A stretch of 64,000 nt of DNA from a virus (IMGVR_UViG_3300037297_000066:310001-374000), one strand, 5' to 3'; positions 11,261-18,807 are shown, numbered from the stretch's first letter. The notes: generated by a model from the sequence alone, not told the origin. Numbers and translations are program-made.

Positions 11261-11968
11261 GTGATTACGCTTGGCATCGACCCTTCGTTGACAGGGTTTG
11301 GCTGGTGCGTGCACAACGGATCGGTCATCGGTGCCAAGCGTGTCATCGGCAAGGGGGTGTTCGAGACCTCTTCCAAGAGACCTTTCATTTGGAGGTACAT
11401 CTTCTTGCGTCAGGCCGTGTTTAAGCTGCTCGATGCCTACCCGGAAGTGGAGGCTTTGGGGGTGGAGTCACCTCCTTTTGGGGAGCAGTTCTCCGAGGGG
11501 TTGTATGGCCTGTTTATCATGGTCATCGAGGCTGTTTTCCAGAGACGTAAGAACGTAGTTTTCTTCGATCCTCTGACAGTCAAGTTGTTGGCCAAGATGG
11601 ATCCGTCCATCCGCAAAGGGCAGATGGATAAGGCCGACATGGTGGAGGCATCCAAGGCAGACACGGGGATCAAGAAATGGAACCATAATGAAGCGGATGC
11701 TTTCATCATTTCCAGATCAGCCGCTAGGTTCTGGGACTTCTACGAAGAACGAGTGGTGGAAGAGGAGTTAACCCCTTCTGAGAAACATGTGTTCGCTAGA
11801 AAGCACACCTACAAGAGAGGTCGTCGAGCTGGGCGGACGGTCAAGAAGGGTACTGTCTATCGTGAGGGGGAACGGTTCTTTCGTTTCTCCGAGCTAACAC
11901 CTGAATACGTGGATGTGAGAGTGTTGTTTGAGCGTGGAGATCGTTATGTCCGAGACCGCCAAAACTGA
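11261..11968 (+). CDS. ruvC: RuvC-like Holliday junction resolvase
   Basis: An RNase H-fold endonuclease of 235 residues. GIDPSLTGFG at the N-terminus carries the first catalytic Asp, VESPPFG the Glu, and NHNEADAF the final acidic residues, in the order and spacing of RuvC. E. coli RuvC is 173 residues; the extra ~60 at the C-terminus are basic (HTYKRGRRAGRTVKK) and then acidic/aromatic, probably an added DNA-contact region. The start is GTG 11261. The end overlaps recA by 23 nt. It would resolve four-way junctions from RecA-driven recombination or debranch replicated DNA before packaging. Confidence 0.85.
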   Translation: MITLGIDPSLTGFGWCVHNGSVIGAKRVIGKGVFETSSKRPFIWRYIFLRQAVFKLLDAYPEVEALGVESPPFGEQFSEGLYGLFIMVIEAVFQRRKNVVFFDPLTVKLLAKMDPSIRKGQMDKADMVEASKADTGIKKWNHNEADAFIISRSAARFWDFYEERVVEEELTPSEKHVFARKHTYKRGRRAGRTVKKGTVYREGERFFRFSELTPEYVDVRVLFERGDRYVRDRQN

Positions 11969-13361
11969 AGCCCCGAAACAGCAGGTTAAGAGGGGTCCCG
12001 GTCGGCCTCCTAAGAATCCTGGCGCCAAGCCTGGTCCGAAACCAGGTAAGAAGTCAGTAAAGAACGCCAACGCCAATCGTTCTGCCAAGTCAGCTGCAGC
12101 AGCTAGAAATGCCATTCACAAGTATCTGAAGCAAGATCCTGTGGCTATGAATGTTTCGCAGCTTCCCCACCTCTCTACGGGGAGCTCTAGCATCGACAAC
12201 CTGATTGGAGGCACTCCGTCCAAGGACGGCAGCGGCCCTGTCTGTCCTGGCTTCCCTAGAAAGCATGTCTCGGAAGTGTTTGGTCCTGAGTCAAGTGGAA
12301 AGACCACGTTGGCTTTGGAAACCGTTGTCCGTGTTCAGAAGAATGGCGGGGTAGCCATGTTTCTGGACTTTGAGCACGCTCTTCACCATGGCTATGCAAG
12401 CGCCGTTGGGGTGGATTTTCATAAGGACAGGTTGCTTCTCTATGCCCCTGAGACTCTTGAACAGGGTTTCAAAATGATTTGGACTGCCATCCATACGGGA
12501 GTGGATCTTGTGGTGGTGGATTCCGTATCTAGCATGGTGCCCAAGTCTGAGATGGAGAAGAAGCCCGATGAGGCGGCAAAGGTAGGGGCCCAGGCAGCTT
12601 CCTTTTCGATCATGCTTCCCAAGCTGATCAACTGGCTCCACAGTGAGGCTGCTCTGAAAATCAACCCTCAAGGAACGGCCATTATTTTCTTGAACCAGGA
12701 ACGGGCTTTCATTCAGACGTCGGGGGGTAAGGGAGGTCCGAAGGCCCGGGAGGGAACCGTCAACACCTCAGGAGGGAAGGCGCTCAAGTTCTATGCCTAC
12801 GTGCGGCTGATGATGACGAAAAAGGGGCATGACACCATCAAGCGGAAGGATCGTTTCACTGGCAAAGAACGGACATACCCCTACGGTAACCACGTCACAG
12901 TCAAGGTGGTGAAGTCGAAGATCGATGCTAAGCAGGGCCATTCCTGTGACATCTTCATTCGCTACGGTCAAGGCATCGACGATTACCACAGCATCCTTCA
13001 GGGGGCGTTGTCCAATCGTCTCGTCAAGACAGGAGGGGGAGGTTACTACGAATACGAAGGACAGCGGATTCGGGGTAAAGACAAGTTCCGTCAGTACCTT
13101 GTAGACAATCCGAAGATCTTCAAGAAGCTTCGGGCAGCTGTGCTGTCGGCCGTAGTAGAAACCGAGCCTCCGGTGGAGCTGGAGGAAGATGACGATCTGA
13201 TCAGTCAGATGGAGTCGGCGTTTGAAGGGGAGGACTTCGATTTGGCAGCTGCTGTGAACGAAGAGTACGAGGGAGAGGTCATCGAGGAAGATTCTTCGGA
13301 AGAGGAGGATTCCTCTGAAGAGGGGGAGGACTCCTCAGAGGAGGGGTCGGGGGAGGACTAG
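11946..13361 (+). CDS. recA: RecA recombinase with basic N-terminal extension and acidic tail
   Basis: A 471-residue RecA (E. coli 353). The core has Walker A GPESSGKTT (113-121), DFEHALHHGYA, Walker B LVVVDSV, an L1/L2 region (FLNQERAFIQTSGG) and a C-terminal segment with the 'qGkeN'-like KIFKKLR. About 47 extra N-terminal residues are Lys/Pro/Ala-rich and contain an AT-hook-like RGPGRPPK. The last ~65 residues are acidic repeats (EEDSSEEGEDSSEE). ATG 11946 has GGAGA at 10 nt; a TTG at 11928 would add six residues. It acts in strand exchange and probably recombination-dependent replication. The acidic tail extends a feature that in cellular RecA is short and autoinhibitory. Confidence 0.95.
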   Translation: MSETAKTEAPKQQVKRGPGRPPKNPGAKPGPKPGKKSVKNANANRSAKSAAAARNAIHKYLKQDPVAMNVSQLPHLSTGSSSIDNLIGGTPSKDGSGPVCPGFPRKHVSEVFGPESSGKTTLALETVVRVQKNGGVAMFLDFEHALHHGYASAVGVDFHKDRLLLYAPETLEQGFKMIWTAIHTGVDLVVVDSVSSMVPKSEMEKKPDEAAKVGAQAASFSIMLPKLINWLHSEAALKINPQGTAIIFLNQERAFIQTSGGKGGPKAREGTVNTSGGKALKFYAYVRLMMTKKGHDTIKRKDRFTGKERTYPYGNHVTVKVVKSKIDAKQGHSCDIFIRYGQGIDDYHSILQGALSNRLVKTGGGGYYEYEGQRIRGKDKFRQYLVDNPKIFKKLRAAVLSAVVETEPPVELEEDDDLISQMESAFEGEDFDLAAAVNEEYEGEVIEEDSSEEEDSSEEGEDSSEEGSGED

Positions 13362-13366
13362 TCTGA

Positions 13367-14722
13367 ATGATTGAAGTCACCATTCAGAACTTCCAGTCGA
13401 TTCGAAAGGTATCCCTTCGGATTGATCGGTTCACAGCCCTAGTGGGTCGTTCTAACATTGGCAAGTCAGCTATTGTTAGGGCGATCCGCTGTGCTCTGAC
13501 AGGAGCTGCTGGTACCGAGTTCGTTCGACACGATCCAGAGACGTGTGCTCGTCTGCTCAAGGGGAACAAGAAGTGTAAATGCTTCACCTCTGTGCGTCTC
13601 AAGATGAACGGCATTTCCTTGCTTTGGGAAAAGGGGGATGCCGTCAACAAGTACACGGTTGTCAAAGATGGGGTGGAACAGGTCTACACCAAGGTAGAGC
13701 GGGGGACCCCTGAGTTTCTGAGCCCTGAGTTTTCTTTGGTCAAAGTTGGGGACTCCAAGGATCTGGTTCAGGTTTCTGAGCAGTTTGATCCTATCTTCTT
13801 GTTGGACCAATCAGGGGCTACCGTAGCGGATGTCCTCAGTGATGTAGCAAAACTGGATAGCATCAACGAGGCCATGCGGTTGGCCGAGAAGGATCGTAGG
13901 GAGGCGGTCTCTACTCGGAAGGTTAGAGAGAAGGATCTGAAGGCCATACGTGACGAACTTTCGGCCTATGACGGTTTGGATTCTACGGTGGCTCGGGCTC
14001 GCAGGGTACAGGAGGAGTACGAGGGCGTTTTGGCAGCCTCTAAACGGCTTCAGGAGCTCGTTGCCTATCGGCAGTCTCTAAGGGACCAGGTGACAGCCGC
14101 AAAGCTTCTGAAGGCCGCTACGGAGCCAGACTTACCTGATCGTGACGTATTGAGCTCCCAGTACACGAAGGCGAGTCAGCTGGAGAAGTTGGCCCGTCGT
14201 TCGGTTCAGCTTCGAGGACTGGTCAAGTGCATGCGGGAAGCTCTAGCCCCGGATCTACCTGACCACAGTTCGCTGGAGGCGTCTCATAGCAAGGCAAAAG
14301 AGTTGGAAGTCTTTGCGGGACGTCTTGTCGTAGTTCGTAAACAGATCAAGGCTCTTTTGGTGGTGCAAGGCACCTCCCTTATGGACGAGGCACCTGTTCA
14401 GAAAGCTTTGAACCGGACTGTGTTGTTGGGAGAGTGGGCGTCTCGTGTTCGTGGGCTTGTTGGGCTGTTGAAAGGATCCGAAAAGCTTCAGCAGTCGTTG
14501 GCAGCTCCTGATGCTTGCTCGAAGCCTTTGGAGAAGGTTGTTCGTTTGGCGGCCTTTTCCCAAAGGTATGAGACTCTTGTGGGCCAGGTGGGGGATCTGG
14601 AAGAGAGTCTTGAGAGGGCTGTAGAGGATGAAAAAGGGTTGCGACAGGAGTTCAATGAGCTCGGGGCGTGTCCCACTTGTTCTCAGCGTCTTAGTCCTGA
14701 ACACATGCTGGGGCACTCCTGA
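13367..14722 (+). CDS. sbcC: N-terminal half of a Rad50/SbcC-type ATPase ending at a zinc hook
   Basis: A 451-residue protein. It opens like Rad50/SbcC/RecF (IEVTIQNFQSI), with Walker A GRSNIGKSA (27-35) and a Q-loop region, then ~270 residues of helical arm from about residue 160. The arm shows ~45-residue imperfect repeats (PDLPDRDVLSSQYTKA, PDLPDHSSLEASHSKA). It ends with CPTC (C435, C438), the Rad50 zinc-hook motif, only 13 residues before the stop. ABC signature and Walker B are missing; they are encoded separately at 18082. It overlaps the SbcD gene by 1 nt. Together these would form an SbcCD/Mre11-Rad50 end-processing complex. Confidence 0.88.
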   Translation: MIEVTIQNFQSIRKVSLRIDRFTALVGRSNIGKSAIVRAIRCALTGAAGTEFVRHDPETCARLLKGNKKCKCFTSVRLKMNGISLLWEKGDAVNKYTVVKDGVEQVYTKVERGTPEFLSPEFSLVKVGDSKDLVQVSEQFDPIFLLDQSGATVADVLSDVAKLDSINEAMRLAEKDRREAVSTRKVREKDLKAIRDELSAYDGLDSTVARARRVQEEYEGVLAASKRLQELVAYRQSLRDQVTAAKLLKAATEPDLPDRDVLSSQYTKASQLEKLARRSVQLRGLVKCMREALAPDLPDHSSLEASHSKAKELEVFAGRLVVVRKQIKALLVVQGTSLMDEAPVQKALNRTVLLGEWASRVRGLVGLLKGSEKLQQSLAAPDACSKPLEKVVRLAAFSQRYETLVGQVGDLEESLERAVEDEKGLRQEFNELGACPTCSQRLSPEHMLGHS

Positions 14723-15699
14723 TGGCTATTCGATTTCTCTACCGGACAGACGTACACATGGCGGATCGATCCCCCGCTTCATGGAAGGGAGACTACCCTG
14801 CTGAGCTCTGGGAGTCCCTTCGGCAGATCGGGGAGCTGGCCAGGAAGTACCAGGTACAAGCGGTGTTGGATGGGGGAGACTACTTCCACGTCAAAGCTGC
14901 TACCCGTAACTCTCATGCCATCGTGGCCAAGACGGCTTCTTTGCATCTGTCGGAGTACTCTTGTCCGGTGTGGGCTATCGAGGGCAACCATGACATTGCC
15001 TATCGCTCTCTGGACACCTTGGATAGACAACCTCTGGGTGTACTTTTTGCCTCGGGGGTGTTTCATAAGTTGAGGAATGAGGTTTTCCGAGAAGGCTCCC
15101 TTAAGGTGAGGGTGGTGGGGGTTCCATTTGATCCTCTTCTGAAGCTGGAAGATCTTCTGGCCATCAAGAAGGAGCCCGGTGATACCCACCTGATCATGGT
15201 GGTGCATGCTCTAGCGTCGAAAGACCCTCCTCCCAACGTGAACGAGTTTTTCGGAGAGTCTGTTTTCCGGTACAGTGACCTGGTTCACGAAGGGGGCCCT
15301 GACGTAGTCTGCTTTGGACATTGGCATCGGGACCAGGGAGTTGAGGTTATTGATGGTCGCTACTTCGTCAATCCTGGAGCTATCAGCCGGGGAGCTTTGA
15401 TCAAGGAGAACCTCAATCGAATTCCGAAGGTGGTTCTCATCGAGTGTTCGGAGGAGGGGATTTCTATCTCAGCTGCTCCTCTCAAGGTGGCCCCAGCTCG
15501 GGAGGTCTTTGACCTAGAGCGTAAAGCTCGTCAAGAACGGGAGAATGAGTCCATCGAGCAATTCGTGGACAGGATTCGACAAGACGTTCAGTTGGAGGCT
15601 TCCTCTTCGGTAGAGGAAACTGTTCGATCCCTTGACTTTGCTCGTGATGTGAGGGATGCGGCTTTGGAGTATCTTGAACGAGCTAGGGCCCAAAGCTGA
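14722..15699 (+). CDS. sbcD: SbcD/Mre11-like DNA nuclease subunit
   Basis: A 325-residue metallophosphoesterase. All metal-ligand motifs are in order: D10-x-H12 (RTDVH), GGD53, GNHD (88-91), VVH162, and GHWH (199-202). The C-terminal ~70 residues are charged and helical and fit the Rad50-binding segment. Mre11/SbcD is the endo/exonuclease of the Rad50 complex and trims blocked or hairpin DNA ends; T4 gp47 is the phage counterpart. It is flanked by the Rad50 N-half (TGATG overlap) and a Cas4/AddB-like nuclease (1-nt overlap), a compact end-resection cluster. Confidence 0.93.
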   Translation: MAIRFLYRTDVHMADRSPASWKGDYPAELWESLRQIGELARKYQVQAVLDGGDYFHVKAATRNSHAIVAKTASLHLSEYSCPVWAIEGNHDIAYRSLDTLDRQPLGVLFASGVFHKLRNEVFREGSLKVRVVGVPFDPLLKLEDLLAIKKEPGDTHLIMVVHALASKDPPPNVNEFFGESVFRYSDLVHEGGPDVVCFGHWHRDQGVEVIDGRYFVNPGAISRGALIKENLNRIPKVVLIECSEEGISISAAPLKVAPAREVFDLERKARQERENESIEQFVDRIRQDVQLEASSSVEETVRSLDFARDVRDAALEYLERARAQS

Positions 15700-16580
15700 T
15701 GTATCTGTCTTACTCTGGCTGGAAGAAACTGAGCGACTGCGAGTTTGCCTATTGGCTGGCTTACGTTGCTCGGTTACCCATCGAGGGTGTGGACAACATG
15801 GTCAACTCCTTGTTTGGGTCGGTGTTGGGGGAACTCTTCGAGGACTTTTACAATGGGGGGTACTGGCGCAAGAATCGACGGAACGGCCTCTCTTCCGAAG
15901 AGTTCTTGGATAGTCGGACAAAGGATAAGCTGCTGCAGGTAGTTAAGGATAAGAAGCGAAAGGGACAGGTCATCCAGTGGAAGGACGAGGACCCTTTAGC
16001 TACCTACAAGTCCAAGGATGAGTTGTTGAGGGACTTGCGTCAGGGTATTCGGTCTGGGTTGGCCAGCATACGGTTTCACAGGCTAATTGGGAAAGACGCA
16101 AGGGCCGAGGTGAAGCTGGATGGTACCTTCCATAGCCATCGGATTGCTGGCCGAGCAGACTTGCTAATGACTCGGATCCCTCCTGATGAGGATCTAGTCT
16201 TGTTAGATGGCAAAGGGTCCAAACCTCACAATCGGAAGTACGTGGACCCTGACCAGTTGCGTTGGTACGGAATGCTCTACCGGCACAAGTTCAAGAGACT
16301 TCCTGACAAACTTGGTTTTCTGTTTTGGAGAGCCGGACCGGTAGAGAGCATCGATTGGCTGGCTTTTTGCGAAGACGACCTGTCAGAGCTTTTTGAACGT
16401 GTGCTAACCGTTGCGAATAGTGTAGAATCTCGCCTTGCTCGGTTAGAGAGCAGCCCTTCTCTGTCGTCTGTCAGGAAGATTTTCAGAGACCGTCCGAGCC
16501 AGTCGGCTTGTCGTTTCTGCCCTTACGCCGTCCGCAAGATTTGTCCCGAAGGGTTCTCTTTGACCCATCAATCTGACTAA
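15699..16580 (+). CDS. Cas4/AddB-like PD-(D/E)XK nuclease with 4Fe-4S cysteines
   Basis: A 293-residue RecB-family nuclease. The core shows E137, GRAD154LL, LLD170GK172 (the D-x-K) and Q186 followed by Y190 (QLRWY), the usual RecB-nuclease signature. Four cysteines fit the AddB/Cas4 iron-sulfur staple: C14 near the N-terminus (LSDCEFAYWL), then C271, C274 and C282 (CRFCPYAVRKIC). Such enzymes process DNA ends 5' to 3'. There is no CRISPR array or Cas1/Cas2, so a resection role beside SbcCD and RecA is far more likely than spacer acquisition. It overlaps sbcD by 1 nt. Confidence 0.88.
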   Translation: MYLSYSGWKKLSDCEFAYWLAYVARLPIEGVDNMVNSLFGSVLGELFEDFYNGGYWRKNRRNGLSSEEFLDSRTKDKLLQVVKDKKRKGQVIQWKDEDPLATYKSKDELLRDLRQGIRSGLASIRFHRLIGKDARAEVKLDGTFHSHRIAGRADLLMTRIPPDEDLVLLDGKGSKPHNRKYVDPDQLRWYGMLYRHKFKRLPDKLGFLFWRAGPVESIDWLAFCEDDLSELFERVLTVANSVESRLARLESSPSLSSVRKIFRDRPSQSACRFCPYAVRKICPEGFSLTHQSD

Positions 16581-16589
16581 GGAACAGCA

Positions 16590-16862
16590 ATGTCTCTCGA
16601 TCGACTACAGAAGAGATTTGAGGATCTTTCTCAACGGTACCACAAGGCTTCTGGGAACAAAGCCAAGCTGGAAGCCCAGCTGGAGATGAAGAAGAAGGAG
16701 TTGACTGATCTTGTAGAAGAGATCAAGGCAGCTGGTTTCGACCCTAAGAAGCTGAAGGAGGCTGTGGACGATGCTGAGAAAGAGCTGGTAGCTCTCATGG
16801 ATGAGTACGAGTCCAAGCTCAAGAGTGTGGAAGAGGCCCTAGAAGCCTACAAAAACAGATGA
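16590..16862 (+). CDS. Small coiled-coil protein between resection genes
   Basis: A 90-residue protein that is almost wholly heptad-like and charged (KLEAQLEMKKKELTDLVEEI, then EKELVALMDEYESKLKSVEE), with a single break at AAGFDPKK, so it likely folds as a helical hairpin. There are no cysteines. It lies between the iron-sulfur nuclease and the clamp, within the interval that separates the two Rad50 halves. Whether it supplies part of the missing descending arm of the split Rad50 is speculation. Start ATG 16590 follows AAGGAACAGCA; its stop overlaps the next start (ATGA). Confidence 0.7.
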   Translation: MSLDRLQKRFEDLSQRYHKASGNKAKLEAQLEMKKKELTDLVEEIKAAGFDPKKLKEAVDDAEKELVALMDEYESKLKSVEEALEAYKNR

Positions 16863-18118
16863 GGATGGAGATGAAGTTCAACGCATTGGTGAAGGATTTG
16901 GTGGCATCCTTGGATGTCGTTTCTGTGGTGCCTCCCAAGTATCCGGGGGCTGACAAGAGAGATTCTGGCTACTTGTTCGTGCTCAAAGAGGACAGGTGTC
17001 TGGTCTACTCTTCTGATGGGTCTCGGGTAGTTCGGTCAGAGTTTCCTGTGACGGAGGTAGAAGGCACTGGATCCTTCGTGTATCCCGGGGATGTCAAGGC
17101 CAGCGCCCCTTTGCGATTCTTGGACCAAGATTCGGAGATCACGATGGAGGCTGGTCACGAGGAGACCGGAGACCGTTACTTCGTCAAATACCAGGTGGGC
17201 CAGGCCAAATCGGAGAAGTCCACTTACGACCCGAGGCGGTTCTCTACCTTCGACGATGCTCTACAGAGGGCCGGGGAAGGGTTCGAGGTTGTCACTTCTG
17301 TGTTGAGGACTTCCTTGCAAATGGCCAAGCCTTACGTAGCTAATAGTTCGGATCCGGACAGTGCTTTTGCTACGGTGTGCTTGTTCGACGATTCGAACGA
17401 AGCCTGGGCCGCCGGCAACGGGGTCGTTTACGCAGCCGACAACAAGGGCAGCACGGCTTTTTTCTTCCAGTGCAGTGAGTTGGAAGGAAAGGGGCTATCG
17501 GTTCATGGCCAACACCTGCCGTTCGTGGGGGCTTTTTTGTCTAGGTGTGGGGTCAAAACCCGGGTTCTTGTAGGGGAGTCGATGACTTACCTTGTCAACG
17601 ACGATAACCAGGTCTTTGGTTGGAGTCGTTGCCAGAGTAATCACGATCACTTTCGCTACCCTGCTCTGAAGAAAGACCAGTTCGTTCTGCGCATGTCTTT
17701 GGAGAGTCTCCTGAACGCTCTTCGACACATGCAAGCGGAGATGGGGTCTCAACAGAGCAGGATCAACATGCGGTATTCTCACGAAGAGAAGATCCTGCAG
17801 TTCCGTGGTAGGGGCGGTTCGAACAAGGTGCAGAGTGTCCCGGTGGCAGTCACTCCTGTGAAAGACGAGGATGAGGCTGGAGGGGGTTCTGCTGGAGACT
17901 CAGAGGACTTTAGCCTCAACGCAAACGTCAACCATCTCATTTCGTTGGTGGAGACTTCCAAAGCTCACGAGGTGAACTTGAGAGTGAGTGCCGCTGGCAA
18001 GAAAGCGTTCTTCCGGACCATCGATGAGTTCCGTTTGGACGACAAAGGGAGAGTTGTGGCTGAGGTAGATGGGACCTACTTGTGCAGCGTGACACGATTT
18101 GCAACGACCCAAGCCTAG
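16859..18118 (+). CDS. dnaN: Probable DNA sliding clamp (polymerase III beta-like)
   Basis: A 419-residue protein with three similar alpha/beta segments as in beta clamps. Segment 1 starts MKFNALVKDLVASLDVVS. Segment 2 contains NGVVYAADN (compare 'DGhrla'), then LSVHGQHLPFVGAFLSRCG and a strand series. Segment 3 has NANVNHLISLVETSKAHEVN followed by AFFRTIDEF. E. coli beta is 366 residues; a Gly/Asp-rich insert (DEAGGGSAGDSEDF) explains some of the extra length. The call is supported by delta, delta' and DnaX genes in the same operon. Several ATGs (16859, 16865, 16871) are possible starts. Sequence match to known clamps is weak by eye. Confidence 0.65.
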   Translation: MRMEMKFNALVKDLVASLDVVSVVPPKYPGADKRDSGYLFVLKEDRCLVYSSDGSRVVRSEFPVTEVEGTGSFVYPGDVKASAPLRFLDQDSEITMEAGHEETGDRYFVKYQVGQAKSEKSTYDPRRFSTFDDALQRAGEGFEVVTSVLRTSLQMAKPYVANSSDPDSAFATVCLFDDSNEAWAAGNGVVYAADNKGSTAFFFQCSELEGKGLSVHGQHLPFVGAFLSRCGVKTRVLVGESMTYLVNDDNQVFGWSRCQSNHDHFRYPALKKDQFVLRMSLESLLNALRHMQAEMGSQQSRINMRYSHEEKILQFRGRGGSNKVQSVPVAVTPVKDEDEAGGGSAGDSEDFSLNANVNHLISLVETSKAHEVNLRVSAAGKKAFFRTIDEFRLDDKGRVVAEVDGTYLCSVTRFATTQA

Positions 18119-18807
18119 TCTCTAGGGTCCAGGCTCTTGGAGAGTCTTCGGCCAGATTGGTTGCTTTGCGTGATCGTCTGGTCGAAGACTTGAAGGCCAA
18201 AGAGACAGAGGTGGAGACCTTGGGGAGCACGATTGACAAGCTCACCAAGGTAGGGGAGTTGTTTCGCAAGTTGATGGATCTGTTGGTTCATGAGCAGGTC
18301 CAGGCAGTCAAGAGTCTCATTTCTAAAGGCTTTCAAGCCATTTTCTACGACCTTGATCTGTCCTTCGAGGCGGACATCCTGTCCAAGCACAACCGGGTTT
18401 GGATCGACTTCTTCATTCGGCACGGGCAACCAGACGACCCTCTCTCACATCGAGGGAAGCCCTTGGACTCGTTTGGAGGAGGCCCCTCTAGTGTGGCCTC
18501 TTTGGTGTTGCGTATCATCACATTGCTGAAGCTCAAGCGCTATCCGTTGCTGGTGTTGGACGAGGCTTTAGGGGCGGTATCTGACGAGTACACGGAACGT
18601 ACGGGTATGTTCCTGAACAAGCTGGCTGACGAAACGGGGATCGATATTCTGTTGGTGACGCACAAGGCGGCCTATCTAGATCATGCTAACCAAGCGTACC
18701 GCAGCTCCGAGGGGATAGAGGGGAGTGTACGGTACTTGATGCTCAAGGGCCTTCGACATGAAGACAGCACGAGAGATCGAAAACCGAATTCGTCAGTTGT
18801 TGGTTGA
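18082..18807 (+). CDS. C-terminal half of a Rad50/SbcC-type ATPase
   Basis: A 241-residue protein carrying the ATPase elements missing from the gene at 13367: the ABC signature (SFGGGPSSVASLVLRI), Walker B and catalytic Glu (PLLVLDEALG), a D-loop (AVSDEY) and the H-loop (LLVTHKAAYLD). Only ~60 residues of coiled coil precede this lobe, with no CxxC, so the descending arm and second hook are absent. The start is uncertain: GTG 18082 overlaps the clamp gene by 37 nt without a clear ribosome site. It should pair with the 13367 product to complete the two-lobed ATPase. Confidence 0.85.
   Translation: MQRDTICNDPSLVSRVQALGESSARLVALRDRLVEDLKAKETEVETLGSTIDKLTKVGELFRKLMDLLVHEQVQAVKSLISKGFQAIFYDLDLSFEADILSKHNRVWIDFFIRHGQPDDPLSHRGKPLDSFGGGPSSVASLVLRIITLLKLKRYPLLVLDEALGAVSDEYTERTGMFLNKLADETGIDILLVTHKAAYLDHANQAYRSSEGIEGSVRYLMLKGLRHEDSTRDRKPNSSVVG

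Follow-up and report, generated by a model that had tools for sequence, protein, structure and literature searches.

Rad50/SbcC is encoded as two proteins, cut at the zinc hook, in a large group of giant phages

The giant phages concerned form a large group; in place of a single long Rad50/SbcC chain they make two proteins, together with the same very small helical protein. Rad50/SbcC is near universal. In archaea and eukaryotes Rad50 is naturally a single chain, and models of DNA-end tethering and cutting give its long double arm and its hook a central place. Given a natural split form, this machine, which was believed to require two equal arms, can evidently also be built in another way. The window, a stretch of 64,000 nucleotides (bases 310001-374000 of a 437,331-base virus record), encodes an N-half and a C-half, with the cut at the zinc hook and four genes in between (positions counted from the first base of the window):

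13367..14722, + strand: N-half of the split Rad50/SbcC, 451 aa, with N-lobe, neck helix, modular arm and C-terminal zinc hook
13445..13468, + strand: Walker A motif GRSNIGKS, residues 27-34 of the N-half; G27, R28, S29, N30, G32 and K33 invariant in 32 sequences
13976..14659, + strand: distal arm, residues 204-431; five predicted helices, their number variable in modules of ~40 aa
14669..14680, + strand: zinc-hook motif CPTC, residues 435-438; C435 and C438 invariant in 32 sequences
14722..15699, + strand: SbcD/Mre11 nuclease, 325 aa (Metallophos, 1.6e-11)
15699..16580, + strand: PD-(D/E)XK nuclease with a four-Cys (Fe-S type) pattern, 293 aa (PDDEXK_1, 6.9e-16)
16590..16862, + strand: small two-helix coiled-coil protein, 90 aa, with the turn motif AGFDPK; relatives in the same place
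16859..18118, + strand: DnaN-like beta sliding clamp, 419 aa (profile against the PDB 8dt6 beta clamp, E 8.2e-12)
18082..18807, + strand: C-half of the split Rad50/SbcC, 241 aa, with one neck helix and the C-lobe
18472..18483, + strand: ABC signature loop, FGGG for LSGG; G132 and G133 invariant and G134 at least 90% conserved in 35 C-halves
18547..18564, + strand: Walker B motif LLVLDE, residues 156-161; D160 and E161 invariant in 35 C-halves

The ABC motifs are divided over the two genes and conserved in each, with Walker A and Q139 in the N-half and Walker B and the H-loop in the C-half, and each half taken alone has only part of the ATP site. The N-half matches Pfam AAA_23 (4.7e-8) and phrog_16465 (1.8e-19), and its best Foldseek match is the P. 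furiosus Mre11-Rad50 structure 9a9j; with GRSNIGKS and the conserved Q139 it has the Walker A and Q-loop expected of a Rad50 N-lobe. The C-half matches phrog_15167 (1.1e-13). In its AlphaFold model (pLDDT 88.8) a single helix, residues 10-87, precedes a lobe whose Foldseek matches are SMC and Rad50 C-halves (5h66_B, 1ii8_B), and it has the Walker B and H-loop of a Rad50 C-lobe (VTHK in the window, T193-H194 being typical of the relatives). Its GTG start is supported, since relatives begin with ATG at the same place. The position of the signature serine is a glycine, as FGGG is found in the window and in nearly all relatives, and the D-loop Asp is usually Ser in the aligned C-halves; with both residues replaced, the ATPase activity could be altered or weaker.

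The original prediction, a Rad50/SbcC ATPase in two genes cut at the hook, was right in its coordinates and in the content of all six genes. The N-half was correctly described as having Walker A, a long arm and CPTC 13 residues before the stop, without Walker B, and the intervening SbcD, nuclease, small coiled coil and clamp were all borne out. For the C-half, Walker B, the H-loop and the lack of a CxxC stood, and the ABC signature has to be qualified, the loop reading FGGGP and not LSGGQ/E. From the model, roughly residues 10-56 project from the lobe, giving ~47 residues of free coil, a limit that is an estimate.

The hook is well supported. Its profile matches the Rad50 hook structures 1l8d (E 0.0024) and 6zff (E 0.003), and the tail of the N-half, CPTCSQRLSPEH, resembles a canonical Rad50 hook up to the expected start of the descending helix. 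A CxxC hook at the arm apex is thus met by sequence and by hook-structure matches, while zinc binding itself is inferred. In P. furiosus hook peptides, the Zn(Cys2)2 core contributes -20.4, the hairpin -5.8 and the flanking coil only -2.1 kcal/mol (PMC5093744). The tail of the N-half covers the hairpin segment on which most of the stability of the zinc dimer rests (PMC5093744). We infer that, as most stability lies in the zinc-cysteine core and hairpin, a hook without the descending helix could still dimerise.

The split is neither a chance event nor a fault of this record. Searches of the whole 437-kb record with the N-half, the C-half, AAA_23 and phrog_77 found no second or fused Rad50/SbcC, which would have refuted the prediction. 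Its proposed search for the same split in related phages returned 35 loci outside the record (one of them the 485-kb record LR745208), of which ~31 are clearly distinct, a few being near-duplicates. The halves are always separate but close together, no ORF matches both, and the order N-half, SbcD, nuclease, small coil, clamp, C-half is kept in 34 of 35; the remaining locus, L047, differs only in lacking the nuclease gene. Isolated phages of four other host groups are also split: Bacillus vB_BboS-125, Microcystis Mvi-JY20, Tunturiibacter Tunturi_5 and Microbacterium Magritte. The N-half ends 9-14 residues after the CxxC in the first three, and that of Magritte has no CxxC; the genes for the two halves are widely separated in the genomes of Magritte and Tunturi_5. 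A recent gene break or assembly artefact, for which no search gave any support, can be put aside with near certainty, as the prediction had anticipated: it is refuted by the split conserved in the 35 loci and the isolates and by a tree of concatenated N- and C-lobes, in which a 100/100 branch separates all 13 split forms from nine fused proteins (T4 gp46, E. coli SbcC, T5-like, Herelleviridae and others). The split is thus probably old and single. The tree has a small fused sample, no archaeal Rad50 or OLD/RecN-type ATPases, some long branches and a deep alignment. Among sequenced phages the canonical form is common (3,790 records match T4 gp46) and the split is found in only a handful; a scan of genome contigs with the Bacillus phage N-half gave only one weak match.

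The arm of the N-half was modelled by AlphaFold from an alignment of 32 sequences (31 relatives and the window), with a mean pLDDT of 77 and a pTM of 0.37. The model predicts a neck helix (163-199), arm helices at 204-252, 259-290, 301-335 and 341-377, and a last one at 385-431 leading to the hook; these arm helices are 32-49 residues long, with low-confidence, mostly Pro-containing linkers. Measured from the conserved Asp205 to the first Cys of the hook, the neck-to-hook distances group at 147, 186-192, 228-238 and 269-272 residues; a single divergent sequence lies outside these classes, at 207. As judged from these sequences, the arm between neck and hook is built of 3-6 modules of ~40 residues each. 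None of 5000 uniform draws was as strongly quantised, a figure made optimistic by relatedness. At least 10 changes of module number are needed on the N-lobe tree, some of them between close sisters, whereas the lengths of the C-half and the small protein hardly vary. This means that the C-half cannot supply a full-length descending arm; a full-length partner strand would change in step, so that even the C-half and one small protein together cannot be a normal descending arm. The suggestion that the arms are unequal is strengthened by these stepwise changes.

The small protein forms a hairpin of two helices joined by a conserved AGxDPxxL turn, and its relatives, of ~89-99 aa, occupy the same position in the locus. 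No search of Pfam, PHROG or NCBIfam names the protein of the window. Its profile finds gp34 of Bacillus phage vB_BboS-125, a 78-aa protein whose gene adjoins the C-half of that phage, at 35 bits versus 7.2 for the best of 90 shuffles, and hhalign gives 95% for the pair. In the Microcystis and Tunturiibacter phages, small helical genes adjoin one of the halves, with weak similarity; locus L047 has an 84-aa gene with the same GYD turn, and beside the C-half of Magritte no clear small-protein gene was recognised. The proposed involvement of the 90-aa protein gains support from its retention beside one half in very distant phages, and its strong association with the Rad50 halves leads us to infer that it is a subunit. 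An identification as simply the descending arm of gp46 was rejected, its hhalign match to gp46 not being significant.

We consider it likely that the locus encodes a composite Rad50-SbcD nuclease whose modular arm is a single chain, with dimerisation through hooks at the chain ends and the small protein as an added subunit. What the sequences show directly is that the gene is split and stays split among relatives, which motifs are present, that the arm is modular and that the small protein is retained; how the parts assemble, and in what stoichiometry, is inferred, as is the dimerisation at the hook. The six genes would specify a DNA-end nuclease of the Mre11-Rad50 type (SbcCD, gp46/47), with Rad50 assembled from two chains. 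The N-half and C-half lobes would join into one ABC head, and the neck helices (N 163-199, C about 10-56) would pair and bind SbcD. Two heads would sandwich ATP, with the Walker A and B motifs of one facing its partner's FGGG loop, and would gate SbcD, which may trim phage DNA ends for the RecA-type recombinase encoded upstream; such ATP-driven control of the nuclease is an inference. Beyond the neck, the arm would be the N-half chain alone, 3-6 helical modules of ~40 residues with the hook at the end. Two N-halves would share one zinc through their C-terminal CxxC hairpins, so that dimerisation at the tip would survive without a descending arm, and the 90-aa protein, as a third subunit, may pack on the helices of the arm or the hook to replace the missing strand, its binding place also being inferred. 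More tentatively, and with some doubt on our part, a single ancient phage Rad50 lineage may have dropped the antiparallel two-arm design for a one-chain rod that can be extended stepwise, a dimer through terminal hooks and a small hairpin protein, possibly in several copies, replacing the descending strand. If the one-chain rod is true, arm length evolves freely, with no partner strand to match.

The shape of the arm is where other explanations have to be weighed. The modules may instead be folded back into a compact helical bundle, making a short complex in which the hook lies near the heads and has another purpose. Helices of module length separated by low-confidence, mostly Pro-containing linkers would suit such a bundle, as would a hydrophobic period of ~3.4 residues in the module helices. 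A straight coiled coil has a period of 3.5, and the neck helix, the last arm helix, the helix of the C-half and the small protein come close to it. The common gain or loss of a single module makes an alternating up-down bundle awkward, though not excluded, as each change would move the hook to the opposite end, and the pTM of the model is too low to support a compact fold. We regard the bundle as unlikely, but the weak arm model does not separate a rod from a folded-back bundle. The geometry could also be canonical but in three pieces, with the 90-aa protein and the C-half neck helix forming an ordinary descending arm paired with the whole ascending arm. The gene order does place the small protein between the halves, its match to phrog_77 lies past the hook region, colinear with a fused protein, and it scores weakly better against the descending than the ascending arm of T4 gp46 (14.2 versus 7.1 bits). 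The hhalign match to gp46 falls short of significance, however; the small protein, with its conserved turn, has the form of a hairpin and not of one long strand, and a neck-to-hook stretch ranging from 147 to 272 aa in 40-aa steps has near-constant partners, which leaves this arrangement improbable.

A further question is whether the halves form one Rad50 at all, since they could act separately or belong to another class of ABC ATPases (OLD/Gabija or Mad3-like defence). The E-values of the N-lobe against the Old, GajA and mad3 models are indeed as good or better, the MADS protein Mad3 (PADLOC mad3), a single 374-aa chain, can be aligned colinearly to both lobes, and the signature and D-loop depart from those of Rad50. 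Against this, the ATP site is incomplete in either half by itself, the N-half carries a Rad50-type hook motif next to an SbcD gene, the two halves co-occur in the Bacillus, Microcystis, Tunturiibacter and Microbacterium phages, and Mad3 is one short chain whose length leaves no room for a long hooked arm. We find this explanation very hard to sustain. The defence-system reading was likewise set aside on its neighbours, which are SbcD, a nuclease and a clamp, with no TOPRIM or MADS partner among the six genes.

The six genes touch or overlap (TGATG at the junctions of N-half and SbcD, by 1 nt, and of SbcD and nuclease, ATGA between coil and clamp, and 37 nt between clamp and C-half), with a gap of only 9 bases before the coil gene; thus, the locus looks like one translationally coupled operon. 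The clamp/C-half overlap (18082-18118) is remarkably constant, being exactly 37 nt in 24 relatives and 34-43 nt in most others. The SbcD metal ligands (D10, H12, D53, N89, H90, H162, H200 and H202) are conserved in the aligned relatives, and C14, C271, C274 and C282 of the nuclease are kept in 35 of 35. The clamp sequence alone receives no name from Pfam, PHROG or NCBIfam and is named only by its profile and relatives, 18 of 22 of which match phrog_947. The presence of a clamp and an Fe-S type nuclease in the operon suggests, by inference, a coupling to replication. Just upstream lie a RuvC-like resolvase (11261-11968) and the RecA-type recombinase (11928-13361), which point to a likely role in processing DNA ends for recombination-dependent phage replication, as for gp46/47. 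At its C-terminus the recombinase has a long acidic tail in which E, D and S are abundant.

Compared with SbcCD and gp46-gp47 (PHROG 77 and 100; E. coli SbcC, T4 gp46, T5 D13), the split system shares the Walker A/B ABC head, the CxxC hook, the adjacent SbcD and the phage recombination setting. All nine SbcC/gp46 controls are one chain with the hook near mid-chain, whereas the window has two chains, the hook ends the first, there is no full descending arm, the signature is FGGG and there is, by inference, an extra small subunit. The system would work like Mre11-Rad50/SbcCD and meets most of the motif criteria for it, as well as that of an Mre11/SbcD partner; it fails those of a single chain, of roughly equal antiparallel arms (a ~270-aa arm versus ~47 aa) and of a signature serine (SGG), and in the lobe tree it does not group with T4 gp46/PHROG 77. 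Archaeal/eukaryotic Mre11-Rad50 structures (1ii8, 1f2u, 9a9j) are among the best structural matches of both lobes. In the P. furiosus Rad50 structures 1f2u and 1ii8, among the Foldseek targets, the N and C halves are separate chains, a precedent that such halves can assemble; we take these to be engineered, deliberately co-expressed constructs.

The N-half, C-half and small protein of vB_BboS-125 belong to PHROG 16465 (exonuclease), 15167 (ATPase) and 18563 (unknown), the first two of which are matched by the halves of the window. The three families are listed as unconnected, and nothing was found that links them as parts of one Rad50; the label 'exonuclease' is misleading for an ATPase half. 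Our analysis identifies these families, with their unlinked or misleading labels, as parts of one machine. No description of a split SbcC or split Rad50 was found in the open-licence literature, and as far as that literature can be searched the split is undescribed. A comparative jumbo-phage paper calls SbcC/SbcD near universal, and the passages found of it do not mention a split (PMC7824862). A deeply conserved natural version, cut at the hook and with variable modules, is a direct test of the purpose of the second arm and of whether Rad50 arm length matters, and it supplies separately expressible halves for structural work.

Several minor observations were made. In the N-lobe, H55, C60, C70 and C72 (residues 55-72, window 13529-13582) are nearly invariant in close relatives and are not kept as a set in the distant loci L044, L046, L047 and L001; going by this pattern, a second zinc site is possible. 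Stand-alone C-lobes of ~190-220 aa occur in other phages, and Spodoptera frugiperda ascovirus 1a has an entry for a Rad50-like C-lobe that stands alone, a protein of 16.8 kDa (BFVD Q0E500), so that other viruses may also split Rad50. In vB_BboS-125, an AP2-domain gene of the homing-endonuclease type lies between the N-half and the small protein (L052:7407-7979). One SbcD ORF (L008:11350-13416) has 688 aa instead of ~325, with only the normal phosphoesterase domain recognised and the extra ~360 aa unidentified. Insertions of 2-2.8 kb lie inside the otherwise compact operon at L036:2507-5201, L044:12157-14150 and L001:13363-16185.
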